NCBI GenBank assembly: GCA_030625775.1
Contig: DAOUQC010000033.1
Location: 1-48,132, forward strand
Direction of reading: 5' to 3'
From: Verrucomicrobiota bacterium
GTDB taxonomy: Bacteria; Verrucomicrobiota; Verrucomicrobiia; Verrucomicrobiales; DEV007
DNA: 48,132 nt
The position numbers and the translations under genes are program-made. The notes under the pieces were generated by a model. The model was not told the DNA's origin, did no database searches, and was given only the letters and a program-made list of their open reading frames with translations. Shown here in pieces: positions 44,231 through 48,132 of this stretch (position 1 is the stretch's first letter; the number at the start of each line of letters is the position of its first letter).

Positions 44231-45316
44231 TCACACCGTCGCCCCCGGCAAAAATTCCGGCATCAGGCGGATTGCATTGGCTGGCAGCATTCCTGTTTCA
44301 GCCAATTGCCGGGCTGCTGAGGATAAGCGTCGGGCAAAACGATCAGCGTCATTGGTATAACGTGTGATCGGCGGACTGATCGATTCCATAAATGGATCAT
44401 CATCACGGGAAATTACTGCCACATCTTCCGGAATACGTTTACCAAGTTGCAACAAATGCACAAATACGGTGAGAGCATGGGTTGCACGAGCCACCACAAA
44501 AGCTGTCGGTGGATTTTTCTGTTTCAAAGATTCATCCAGTAAGGCGCAAATATGATCCGTGCTGCCGTCATGCCGCAATACATGCAAACATGAGCCTTCG
44601 GAATTCGTAATCAAATCCTTCAACCCTGCTTCACTATCGGTATCACCACCAAATACTTCACGGGGCAAAACCAGGGCGATCTGTCGATGGCCTTTTCTCA
44701 ACAAAACAGCACCGGCATGATGACAGACCGCACGGTGATCAGCATCAATAGAGGGAAGCGGTATATCCGGTTGGGATGACCCCATGACCAGACAAGGCAG
44801 TTTTTTGTTCACAAACCAGCGTTCCAATGGCTCCTTGGAATACAGCAAGACCCACACATTGCTTGGATTTTGTTTCACTAGTTTCTCCAGTGCTCTGGCG
44901 GGTTTAGCAGAATAGCAGGCTTTGTCTGCATGCACCTTCATAGCAAAACCCGCCTGAGACAAGGTTCTGCGAATAACATCCAGAACCAATAAGGCCGAAG
45001 GACTCATGCCGGTTAACGAAGCTGTCGAAATCACCCCGACCACTCGCTGGCCTGGATCCTTATCAAGTTTGGAGAGTTTCTTTTTAATATGCCAACGACG
45101 ATTTTGGACCTTTATCCATCCGCCACGCTCCAACTCCTTCAGAGCCGTACGCAAGGTGCTGCGACTGACTTGCAGTTCCTCACTCAAACTTCTTTCATTC
45201 GGAAGCATCTCTTGCCACAAACCTGTTCGTATCCCCTTGCGCAAACTTTCTGCGGTTTCGGCAACCAGTGAACATCTCTGTGGCAAAATGGACAATTCTG
45301 ACTTTTTGTGATTCAT
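44231..45316 (-). CDS. GntR-HTH regulator with periplasmic-binding-protein-like sensor domain
   Basis: 361 residues. The N-terminal winged helix-turn-helix (about 14-75) reads LRKGIRTGLWQEMLPNERSL and SEELQVSRSTLRTALKELER, a GntR-type domain. The remainder (about 90-355) is a LacI-type sugar-binding domain (VVGVISTASLTGMSP, PSIDADHRAVCHHAGAVLL, GHRQIALVL, PEDVAVISRDDDPF). This fusion type is common in Verrucomicrobia as sugar-responsive repressors. Its start codon abuts the operator GGTAT-N7-ATACC at 45317, so autoregulation is likely. The same operator precedes the rraA-like gene. Confidence 0.9.
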   Translation of the reverse strand: MNHKKSELSILPQRCSLVAETAESLRKGIRTGLWQEMLPNERSLSEELQVSRSTLRTALKELERGGWIKVQNRRWHIKKKLSKLDKDPGQRVVGVISTASLTGMSPSALLVLDVIRRTLSQAGFAMKVHADKACYSAKPARALEKLVKQNPSNVWVLLYSKEPLERWFVNKKLPCLVMGSSQPDIPLPSIDADHRAVCHHAGAVLLRKGHRQIALVLPREVFGGDTDSEAGLKDLITNSEGSCLHVLRHDGSTDHICALLDESLKQKNPPTAFVVARATHALTVFVHLLQLGKRIPEDVAVISRDDDPFMESISPPITRYTNDADRFARRLSSAARQLAETGMLPANAIRLMPEFLPGATV

Positions 45317-45333
45317 GGTATGAAATTAATACC
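45317..45333. promoter_or_regulatory. GGTAT-N7-ATACC operator, copy 1
   Basis: GGTATGAAATTAATACC is an inverted repeat with a seven-base spacer, directly upstream of the divergent regulator's start codon at 45316. AAGCATGGGTTTGCAAA follows at 45336-45352. The same unit recurs at 47985-48020 (33 of 36 bases identical). It is the likely binding site of the adjacent GntR-type regulator. Confidence 0.65.
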
Positions 45334-45382
45334 ACAAGCATGGGTTTGCAAACCATTGGAAAAAAAGAACTGTATATCTACC

Positions 45383-45484
45383 ATGTTCTCATTTCCACAA
45401 AATCGTTCTTCTTTTTCTTTTGGCGATCTCTTCCTACTCAAGTGTTGGAACACACCTACAATCTATAAGGGCCAGAAACTGATC
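45383..45484 (+). pseudogene. Duplicated 5' end of an rraA-like gene, fused in frame to the hydrolase gene
   Basis: ATG 45383 starts 27 codons whose translation ends LLKCWNTPTI, matching the rraA-like start at 48052 (LKRWNTPTI) with the same length and no gap. The last 39 bases are about 77% identical between the two copies. The frame stays open and runs into the hydrolase gene. The match includes operator and leader, so the whole block appears to be a duplicated, decayed gene start. Confidence 0.6.
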
Positions 45485-47923
45485 ATGAAAGCAAGGACGA
45501 TGATTTCAGTAATAACGATTGCGGTGTGTGGCTCCAGCTCACTTGCTCTGGCTGAAGACCTTGCCGCCTATTGGAGCTTTAACGATGCTGACGGATCAGA
45601 TGTAGCCTACGATTCATCCGGCAATGGATATCATGCGGATGTTGCGGGAAATGCTGAGTGGGTCCGCGGACAAGTTGGCGGGGCTCTGCGATGTGATGGA
45701 ACGACACGGCTTAGTGTAGCGAATTTTACTGAACCCATCTTGCTTCAGGGGAGTGAAGATGCCGCATTCTCAATAACAGCCTGGGTCAAGCCGGCAGGTC
45801 CGCAAGATGGCTACGACAGATTCATTGTGGCAAGATCAGGCAAACACGGAGGACTATTGGCACATAGCAGGGATGGCACAAACTCACTCGGCTTCTGTGC
45901 TTATTCCAGCGAAAGCCGAAGTACACGGGTAAATACACCGGCAATTGACGACTTCAGCGTCTGGCTCCATTTGGCGGTGGTCTATGATCAACGTTCGATC
46001 GTGTTTTATCTCAACGGAAAGCCTATAAAACGAGCGACCTTCAAAGGCCAGTTCCTGAACTACGGGAATGCACTTGGAATAGCCGGTGTCGAAGGCTATT
46101 GCTTCAAAGGGGATATCGACGAAATCCGCATCTACCGCAGCGCTTTGAATCAGGAGCAGGTAAAAAAACAGTTCCATGACAACTCTATTGTTGAAACACA
46201 GAATGTAACGTCTCCCCCGATTCCTAAGATAAGCCTTGAGCCCAACCGACCTGTACTGGCGAAGCCACTTTTTGATAAAAAATACGTAATGGCTCACTGG
46301 ATGGGGATCAACCCCATGGGTAGTCCCGACAGGTTCGATTATTCCGCATATCGTCCTGATGGTGTTGCGAGCAATGTAGGGGGTGCCTGTCTGTTTTATT
46401 CCCCCATGACAAGCTGGTTGGATAAGTCGACAGAGGAATTTGCCGCCCTGGAATTGACTGCAGCTAAACGCATAGGCATTGACGGGTTTTGCAAGTTCAT
46501 CTCCATTGACACTTGTGATGCGCGAGGTCACGACGGCTGGGATCGCCAGACAAAGAAGATTGTAACTTATCTTCGGGAAGCAGAAAAAATGAAACTTGAT
46601 TTCAAGTTTGCACTGTGTCTGACACTCCCAAAAATGACCTTACCTACGACGGATGAGGTGAAATTGCGTATTTGGGCATCCCGTCTCCGTGCCCTGATGC
46701 ATGAGGTGAACGATTCGCCAAACTGGTTGCGCACACCTGACGGGCGAATCGTTTTTTTCACCTGGGCGCCGGAAAGAATGAGCACTTCGGCAAGAAGTGC
46801 TGCAGGCCTTTTCGGGAAGCCTGACGTTGAAGCCGAAGTTCGAAAACTCGCTGAGTCTTACGAGAAGCTCATGCAGCTTTCCGGTATTGAGGCGGCCATC
46901 GTCTGGGATGTGTTTTCCAGTGTTCATATGCGTACAGCCACAAAAGCGGATCTGAATGAGCAGTTCCGACGTTACGTAGATGCCGTCAACACTTACTTTC
47001 CTGGAGTAGAGGGTAGTATAGGAGGCGGAGCCCCAAGGGTGAAACAGACCGACTCCGACTGGAACTATTGGGCCAGCCAATGCAAGAGCAGGGACCGCTC
47101 TTACGGACAGAGCATTGTCAATGACATGTTCTGTTCAAAAGCATCAACGCTCGACCGGAAAGGTGGAAATATACTGTCTATCGCACAATTTCAGAAGGCT
47201 AATCTGGACGATATGAGCCGTGCCTATTACCCTTTTTCGGGGGCAAGCAACTACCGGACACTCTGGGAGGATGCCATCCGTAACGATGTCCCGTTTGTCA
47301 TGCACTACACCTGGGATGACTTTCTGGAAGGGCATCATATGGCACCCGAGATTAACCACAACTTTGCCTTTGCCACCTTACTTGATTATTACAAGCGTAT
47401 TTGGCGGACTGGAGACACTTCAGTCTCGAAAGATGTAGCACTTGCCTTTTACAAAAAATACCCGTCAACGGCTGTTCCATCCCATTTTAATGTTTCCTTA
47501 TATATCTCTCCTATCAACCTCCCGAAGGAATACCACCCTCAATATGTCCGTGCTCAGGATATCATTGATGTTGTAACTATTCTGACAGCACCAGCTGAAC
47601 TCTTTGTGAATGGGAAAAAACGATGTGAGGCACCAAAAGGAATCCACAGCATTCAGATTCCTATGGAAATCGGGCCTGTCCATATCGAAGTGCGCCGCAA
47701 AGGAATAACAGTCGTCGATCTCACCCCACCAGAATGGATTACGGATAAACCTTATCGAACGGACCGGTTCACTTATGCCTATTCAAGCGAATGTGAAAAT
47801 ATATATAAAGAACTGTTCGGCCATACGCCTGCGGTTATTTCAGACGAATACGCTCAGGACGAAGACGGAATACCGAACTGGTACAAACGCTACAAGCTCA
47901 AGCGGCCACCCGTGGTTGAATAG
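45485..47923 (+). CDS. Secreted LamG plus GH71-like glycoside hydrolase
   Basis: 812 residues from ATG 45485, chosen because it begins a signal peptide (MISVITIAVCGSSSLALAE). The frame is open back to 45308. Residues about 28-220 are a LamG/concanavalin-like domain (AAYWSFNDADGSD, FSITAWVKPAG, VFYLNGKPIKRA, DIDEIRIYRSALN). Residues about 260-610 resemble the GH71/GH99-type alpha-glucanase fold (FDKKYVMAHWMGINPMG, GIDGFCKFISIDTCDARGHD, DDFLEGHHMAPE). The C-terminus ends with DEDGIPNWYKRYKL, a thrombospondin-type-3-like calcium motif. It likely hydrolyses an extracellular glycan. The assignment to GH71 is by eye. Confidence 0.75.
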   Translation: MKARTMISVITIAVCGSSSLALAEDLAAYWSFNDADGSDVAYDSSGNGYHADVAGNAEWVRGQVGGALRCDGTTRLSVANFTEPILLQGSEDAAFSITAWVKPAGPQDGYDRFIVARSGKHGGLLAHSRDGTNSLGFCAYSSESRSTRVNTPAIDDFSVWLHLAVVYDQRSIVFYLNGKPIKRATFKGQFLNYGNALGIAGVEGYCFKGDIDEIRIYRSALNQEQVKKQFHDNSIVETQNVTSPPIPKISLEPNRPVLAKPLFDKKYVMAHWMGINPMGSPDRFDYSAYRPDGVASNVGGACLFYSPMTSWLDKSTEEFAALELTAAKRIGIDGFCKFISIDTCDARGHDGWDRQTKKIVTYLREAEKMKLDFKFALCLTLPKMTLPTTDEVKLRIWASRLRALMHEVNDSPNWLRTPDGRIVFFTWAPERMSTSARSAAGLFGKPDVEAEVRKLAESYEKLMQLSGIEAAIVWDVFSSVHMRTATKADLNEQFRRYVDAVNTYFPGVEGSIGGGAPRVKQTDSDWNYWASQCKSRDRSYGQSIVNDMFCSKASTLDRKGGNILSIAQFQKANLDDMSRAYYPFSGASNYRTLWEDAIRNDVPFVMHYTWDDFLEGHHMAPEINHNFAFATLLDYYKRIWRTGDTSVSKDVALAFYKKYPSTAVPSHFNVSLYISPINLPKEYHPQYVRAQDIIDVVTILTAPAELFVNGKKRCEAPKGIHSIQIPMEIGPVHIEVRRKGITVVDLTPPEWITDKPYRTDRFTYAYSSECENIYKELFGHTPAVISDEYAQDEDGIPNWYKRYKLKRPPVVE

Positions 47924-47984
47924 ATTTTTACGCTATGCCGCCAAAGTTAAGAGGCTCCAGACGGATTTTGAATTCCTTTGCTAC

Positions 47985-48001
47985 GGTATGCAAATAATAC
48001 C
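47985..48001. promoter_or_regulatory. GGTAT-N7-ATACC operator, copy 2
   Basis: GGTATGCAAATAATACC, an inverted repeat like that at 45317, followed by the same AAGCATGGGTTTGCAAA (48004-48020). It lies 50 bases before the rraA-like ATG. A purine-rich AAAGGAAAAGGAAT (48027-48040) in between is the probable ribosome-binding site. Confidence 0.65.
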
Positions 48002-48051
48002 ATAAGCATGGGTTTGCAAAGCAGATAAAGGAAAAGGAATATATTACCACT

Positions 48052-48132
48052 ATGAGTTATTCCCAAAAAAACACCCCTACCCTCTCCCCTGCAGACCTTT
48101 ACCAGCTCAAGCGTTGGAACACCCCCACGATC
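48052..48132 (+). CDS. RraA-family protein, partial at window end
   Basis: The first 27 codons are present and the frame is open at the right edge. The end reads LKRWNTPTI, which matches the start of RraA-like proteins (regulator of RNase E activity / 4-hydroxy-4-methyl-2-oxoglutarate aldolase superfamily), commonly found in sugar-catabolic loci of this phylum. With so few residues the assignment is tentative. It is preceded by the operator at 47985 and by a purine-rich ribosome-binding site. A decayed copy of the same start precedes the hydrolase gene. Confidence 0.5.
   Translation, partial: MSYSQKNTPTLSPADLYQLKRWNTPTI

Follow-up and report, generated by a model that had tools for sequence, protein, structure and literature searches.

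The window analyzed here is a whole contig of 48,132 nucleotides (C75; DAOUQC010000033.1) from assembly GCA_030625775.1 of a Verrucomicrobiota bacterium. Near its right end, a gene with a glycoside hydrolase family 71 (GH71) domain lies between a divergent transcriptional regulator gene and the start of an rraA-like gene. The regulator gene (44231-45316, minus strand) specifies a protein that passes the Pfam cut-offs for both GntR (42.9 versus 27 bits) and Peripla_BP_3 (65 versus 26.5 bits); the domain layout of AraR is likewise a GntR helix-turn-helix plus a sugar-binding-like domain. In relatives, this regulator faces an rraA-like gene. A putative operator of the form GGT-N11-ACC (operator 1, 45317-45333), identified in a motif survey of relatives and showing by eye the arms GGTAT/ATACC, abuts the regulator's start codon. 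It is followed, on the plus strand, by a -35-like TTGCAA (45346-45351), a -10-like TATATC ending 4 nucleotides before an ATG (45373-45378), a 34-codon stub corresponding to the 5' end of an rraA-like gene (45383-45484) and, in frame with the stub, an 812-residue LamG-GH71 gene (45485-47923). A spacer of 61 nucleotides (47924-47984) separates the GH71 stop codon from a second putative operator recognized in the same survey (operator 2, 47985-48001); no similarity of this spacer to the 3' end of the rraA-like gene, or to the corresponding locus of the two congeners in the sample (G001 and G002), was detected. After operator 2, too, TTGCAA (48014-48019) and a -10-like hexamer, TATATT, 6 nucleotides before the ATG (48040-48045), precede a coding sequence, namely the start of an intact rraA-like gene (48052-48132, plus strand). 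The promoter-like hexamers were recognized by eye: TTGCAA is present in both copies and both congeners, and TATATC was identified by comparison with copy 2 and the congeners.

The last 141 nucleotides of the window (47992-48132) recur without mismatch as the first 141 of a second contig, C139 (L006), read on its reverse strand. Extending the locus rightward in this way, as proposed in the initial annotation, completes the open reading frame of copy 2, a 256-residue protein that begins MSYSQKNTPTLSPADLYQLKRWNTPTIFNGWEQI. The block from 45317 to 45484, comprising operator 1, the leader and 34 rraA-like codons, is repeated from position 47985. This recurrence had been noted at the outset, as had the identity of 33 of 36 bases at the operator-leader start, and both observations stand (3 mismatches, rising to 4 over the first 39 nucleotides). 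The accompanying figure of about 77% identity for the coding ends does not: ungapped, the copies agree at 49/81 positions over codons 1-27 (60%) and at 63/102 over all 34 codons (62%), with 15 of 34 amino acids identical, and identity of about 76-85% is confined to codons 19-36 (41/54, the only range that fits the earlier figure) and 19-27 (23/27). Homology continues past codon 27 to codon 34 (45484; YKGQKLI versus FNGWEQI); the copy 2 counterpart of codons 28-34 falls beyond the contig end and is seen only after joining C139. Chance similarity can be dismissed, since local alignments of the copies score 128 where the highest of 500 shuffles reaches 32, and 126 where the highest of 400 reaches 34, and since sliding copy 1 along the plus strand of the joined 61-kb stretch finds its best non-self place at 48052 (63/102, next best 44/102). 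Codon 34 of copy 1 directly precedes the presumed GH71 start codon, the ATG at 45485 of MKARTMISVITIAVCGSSSLALA, which by eye looks like the beginning of a signal peptide. As the initial annotation had it, the first copy runs in frame into the hydrolase gene, there being no stop codon from the ATG at 45383 to the GH71 stop (47923). Copy 1 thus appears to join a duplicate of the native promoter region and gene start to another gene, and the native gene, with the same upstream region, is retained intact behind copy 2.

The 256-residue protein matches PF03737 with 72.8 bits (cut-off 24.5) and belongs to the RraA-like/aldolase family. It scores only 20.5 bits against the 136 required by the NCBIfam equivalog model for RraA proper, the RNase E regulator; the gene is therefore called rraA-like rather than rraA. 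Better partial NCBIfam matches, also far under their cut-offs, include models of 4-carboxy-4-hydroxy-2-oxoadipate aldolase. The arrangement of such genes was surveyed in 386 genomes of the order, the window's own included, in which 105 rraA-like places were listed besides that of the window. A regulator gene lies within 8 kb of 45 of these in divergent orientation and of 9 in the same direction; for 51, no regulator is found within 8 kb among the matches listed. Thirty-eight of the 45 divergent pairs, to which the analysis of gaps was confined, stand back to back, 79-121 nucleotides apart as measured between the matched parts, and GGT-N11-ACC occurs in 37 of these 38 narrow gaps. In the eight loci with wide gaps (the window's own, G000, and seven relatives), its rate is 0.46 per kb, operators counted in. 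GGT-N11-ACC is thus likely to be the operator. In the window's genome it is found at both blocks, as GGTATGAAATTAATACC and GGTATGCAAATAATACC, and is absent from the 2526 nucleotides tested between operators 1 and 2, which are the sole two such paired motifs within 6 kb. A strict version of the pattern has three matches in this genome: operators 1 and 2, and a site on contig C88 (L144 6903-6920). This third site, immediately beyond the end of one of two convergent genes and with an antisense open reading frame beginning 76 nucleotides on, was taken as a chance match rather than a regulon site. A paralogue of the regulator, 59% identical, is encoded on contig C136 (L145 11703-12788), where it faces what appears by eye to be an HpcH-type aldolase gene across an operator-like palindrome, GGTTCTATAATAGAACC. 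This paralogous locus was rejected as the source of copy 1, there being no rraA-like match on C136. A further variant is seen in G040, whose rraA-like gene (L053 8495-8909) faces a regulator and lacks about 116 internal residues, with matches to residues 1-76 and 193-256.

The protein read from 45485 contains a LamG domain (Laminin_G_3, 77.2 bits) and a match to Glyco_hydro_71 (51.4 bits, cut-off 34) covering positions 151-374 of the 375-position profile, and is predicted to be a glycoside hydrolase, a candidate alpha-1,3-glucanase. A search of 95 genomes serving as relatives (own included) at 1e-20 found it in the window's genome and in G020 (32% identity, residues 248-780), and 5 of the 387 genomes of a phylum sample, including the window's own, matched at 1e-30, the other four with 31-35% identity; these counts are lower bounds, with at most 10 candidates per genome scored among the relatives and 2 in the phylum sample. 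Matches in other genomes are confined to the GH71 part. Neither congener yielded a GH71 gene; their genomes are 73% and 95% complete. With no match in the congeners and a single one, at 32%, among 94 other relatives, the gene appears to be new to its lineage. It was read as an insertion because the regulator directly faces the rraA-like gene in relatives and because the congeners lack a detectable GH71 gene. Among 72,556 plasmid records, 4 match, in the LamG part only, and a location of GH71 on plasmids was rejected.

Differences between copy 1 and copy 2 number 10, 12 and 17 at codon positions 1, 2 and 3, a distribution that is not significantly uneven (p = 0.37); over the same 34 codons, the working rraA-like genes of copy 2 and G002 differ at 5, 6 and 20. 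The amino acid identity of the stub does not exceed that expected from neutral drift (P = 0.10 among stop-free simulations), and of the 15 residues among positions 1-34 that ten working genes all share, copy 1 alters 6 (Q18, R21, N29, W31, E32 and Q33). Because of this even spread over codon positions, the drift-level identity and the broken invariant residues, the stub does not seem to be kept as an RraA-like protein, and protein constraint on it is not apparent. The operator and leader, taken as a 39-nucleotide block bounded by eye, carry 4/39 mismatches against 39/102 in the coding part (p = 0.001), suggesting that the operator is the better conserved of the two. By eye, TATATT stands 6 nucleotides before the ATG in copy 2 and before the PhyH genes found behind the operator in both congeners (see below); such a geometry would fit transcripts that start at or near the start codon. 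Positions 45343-45354 of copy 1 form, by eye, a perfect 12-nucleotide palindrome, GGTTTGCAAACC, whose TTGCAA core could act as a -35 element in both directions; its counterpart in copy 2 is GGTTTGCAAAGC.

Seven of the 45 divergent pairs, in addition to the window's own locus, carry other genes between the regulator and the rraA-like gene. In G001 and G002, the sole congeners in the sample, this cargo is a PhyH dioxygenase gene (assignment to PF05721 checked on G002) that lies behind a regulator-side motif, with none before the rraA-like gene. The match to the G001 gene (L038 1439-2193) is split over two overlapping frames (1-84 and 69-251), reflecting a frameshift or an assembly error. G038 carries a gene for a Gfo/Idh-type oxidoreductase together with a second one, on the other strand, without a Pfam match; the cargo of G063 is a ParE-type toxin gene (26.6 versus 23 bits) and, as its partner, a small frame lacking a Pfam match, a pair of which G070 has, by eye, a shortened relative; G079 and G475 carry secreted-looking proteins that resemble each other by eye, the one from G079, the only one scanned, having no Pfam match. 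The motif flanks the cargo on both sides in 5 of the 8 wide loci (G000, G038, G063, G079 and G475), hence in 4 of the 7 relatives, and 3 of those 4 pass a test for duplication. The remaining loci have one motif each, G001 and G002 on the regulator side, G070 on the rraA-like side. Under a stricter rule that requires paired inner bases, only G000 and G038 have the motif on both sides. Alignment scores in the loci that pass the duplication test, against the shuffle maxima, are 126/34 (G000), 85/35 (G038), 94/34 (G063) and 48/33 (G079). In G063 (L148), the toxin gene and its partner frame occupy a gap of 786 nucleotides between near-identical operator blocks (50/53), and their insertion was probably a recent event. 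In G038 and G063 the repeat reaches leftward beyond the operator and takes in the first regulator codons, an extension that none of 1000 shuffles attains. In a FastTree phylogeny of the regulator and the rraA-like protein, rooted at the midpoint, wide loci fall into three lineages: the window's genus (support 1.0), G038 together with the narrow-gap G552 and G049 (0.951), and a clade of G079, G475, G070 and G063 (0.975). At least three insertions therefore took place, unless the narrow relatives lost their cargo on many occasions.

Taken together, these data are best explained, with a probability of about 0.72, by insertion of the LamG-GH71 gene between the regulator and the rraA-like gene with duplication of the operator, promoter and gene start. 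Before the event, one operator would have served two divergent genes, that for the GntR/Peripla_BP_3 regulator and the rraA-like gene facing it. Insertion of a gene new to the lineage would have left the operator, the promoter and the first 34 or so rraA-like codons in two copies, the first remaining beside the regulator and leading into GH71 as a natural fusion to the rraA-like gene start, the second leading into the intact rraA-like gene. The regulator would thereby keep its own site, the rraA-like gene would keep its control and GH71 would enter the same regulon, so that all three genes would respond to one signal. Candidate routes are an illegitimate duplication with DNA caught at the joint, the integration of operator-bearing DNA, and the decay of a whole tandem copy. 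The initial annotation had likewise placed the hydrolase gene inside a regulated locus with the promoter and gene start copied, and that part is supported; the name rraA, which it used for the gene, is a misnomer. Its refuting condition, an upstream block unrelated to rraA in relatives, does not hold, in that the order regulator-operator-rraA-like gene is the common state. The congeners are not empty sites; they carry PhyH at the same place without a second operator.

Several observations weigh against this reading. The duplication test failed in 4 of the 8 wide loci (G001, G002, G070 and G475), and the two motifs of G475 cannot be aligned. An anchored extension to the left of the operators gives no significant result in the window's genome (P = 0.25); a remnant of the regulator gene left of operator 2 is visible in the alignment without being significant and was not retained as a candidate, and G079 has no significant remnant either. 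Because such a remnant is found in G038 and G063 but not in G000 and G079, the loci may have arisen by more than one route. The window's genome holds one GH71 match only, with no second copy of the captured gene as a fresh tandem duplication would have left. The G+C content of GH71 (0.490) is like that of its surroundings (0.501 for the joined stretch), and composition gives no indication of where the gene came from. The open frame of the stub is weak evidence for translation, as it survives in 27% of neutral simulations without insertions or deletions. Better conservation of the operator is graded as suggestive because the contrast weakens when boundaries are not set by eye: the 17-nucleotide motif, whose limits come from the survey of relatives, has 2/17 mismatches (p = 0.051), and the full interval from the operator up to the ATG has 16/66 (p = 0.066); the claim of a significantly better-kept operator was dropped for this reason. 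Finally, a consensus scan for promoters and terminators returned hits at chance level only, and the TTGCAA of copy 1 was not among the promoters that it reported.

Among the alternatives, it is possible, if rather unlikely, that the whole operator-rraA-like unit was duplicated in tandem and that one copy decayed, with GH71 replacing all but its first 34 codons. Such a duplication may be old, given that third codon positions of the two copies differ at 17/34, about as much as those of copy 2 and G002 (20/34), and an rraA-like gene with a large internal gap does occur, in G040. Against this, the rraA-like 3' end is untraceable between GH71 and operator 2, and none of 97 loci (some of them the same genome twice) contains two rraA-like genes. 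Somewhat less probable still is a single-crossover (Campbell-type) integration of circular DNA on which GH71 was already joined to the operator and rraA-like start of a related donor. Direct repeats do flank the insert, G038 and G063 show the same layout with other cargo, and in the coding part copy 2 is closer to the congener gene (31/102 differences) than to copy 1 (39/102). However, the only plasmid matches concern the LamG part, and the half-site GGTAT/ATACC, common to both operators and absent in both congeners, favours a local origin.

The remaining two explanations carry little weight. An assembly artefact that wrongly joined GH71 to the locus might be suspected from the contig end falling inside copy 2, and is very improbable: a single contig holds the regulator, copy 1, GH71 and the start of copy 2, the copies are too different for a repeat collapse, and the flanking genes on both sides keep the order seen in G002. 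That two operators arose independently and that the gene starts resemble each other by chance is next to negligible. Operators bound by one regulator would indeed converge in sequence, but 34 codons align without gaps at 63/102, far above the next best place, and the alignment score lies well beyond the shuffle maximum; the initial argument that similarity reaching into codons speaks against independent operators was thus sound.

The genes that follow the rraA-like gene on C139 encode, among others, a beta-helix protein, a product lacking any family match and an M14 peptidase-esterase protein, in the same order as in G002 over the part of that locus that was fetched. These genes may represent a cluster for the breakdown of some carbohydrate. 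The overlap between C75 and C139 starts at 47992, one base past the position where operators 1 and 2 first differ (A at 45323, C at 47991). A second strain, with the A-type operator directly before the rraA-like gene, may have caused the assembly break at this point; other causes are equally possible.

Promoter capture by duplication is a known phenomenon. Laboratory work described in PMC11111574 indicates that duplication can place a transferred gene behind a promoter; the spontaneous tandem duplications reported there resemble the present case in that a silent or transferred gene is fused to a nearby promoter and long homology is not needed. That system depended on laboratory selection, whereas here the locus is natural, the operator divergent and the fusion made with 34 native codons; moreover, a fresh tandem duplication would presumably carry two copies of the captured gene, and there is one GH71 copy here. 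Promoter capture and co-option through deletion have also been described (PMC5526668). There too, rearrangement puts a gene under a neighbour's promoter, but by loss of DNA, whereas the duplication proposed here retains a native promoter-gene copy. As for the regulator, it shares with GntR-type helix-turn-helix proteins carrying a sugar-binding sensor, such as AraR, the combination of a GntR domain with a sugar-binding-like domain; its putative GGT-N11-ACC site was deduced from the gaps between genes. A literature search met neither a paper on this locus, which is no proof of absence, nor a natural series of promoter captures at one operator. The new part would be the natural, recurrent version of the process at a single divergent operator.

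How new genes come under suitable control has been studied mostly in the laboratory; at this locus, the sequence retains a trace of the process, in that operator, promoter region and gene start appear to have been copied onto an incoming hydrolase gene, and relatives show the state without the hydrolase. The case clearly illustrates, at a natural locus, a type of event already known, and its recurrence merits a survey. In other lineages the motif likewise flanks unrelated cargo on either side, which suggests a rule that we propose as a principle: an insertion that splits a divergent operator region would tend to survive only if the operator is duplicated, so that both sides keep it, or if the cargo joins the operon. 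A bolder and doubtful extension is that the divergent operator repeatedly serves, in Verrucomicrobia and relatives, as a docking site which unrelated cargo (a glycoside hydrolase, an oxidoreductase with a second gene, a toxin-antitoxin-like pair, a secreted-looking protein) enters by operator-copying events, and that the contig break in copy 2 may mark a coexisting strain without GH71. If this were true, genes would join the regulon ready-regulated, and the leftover repeats would permit later exchange of cargo.

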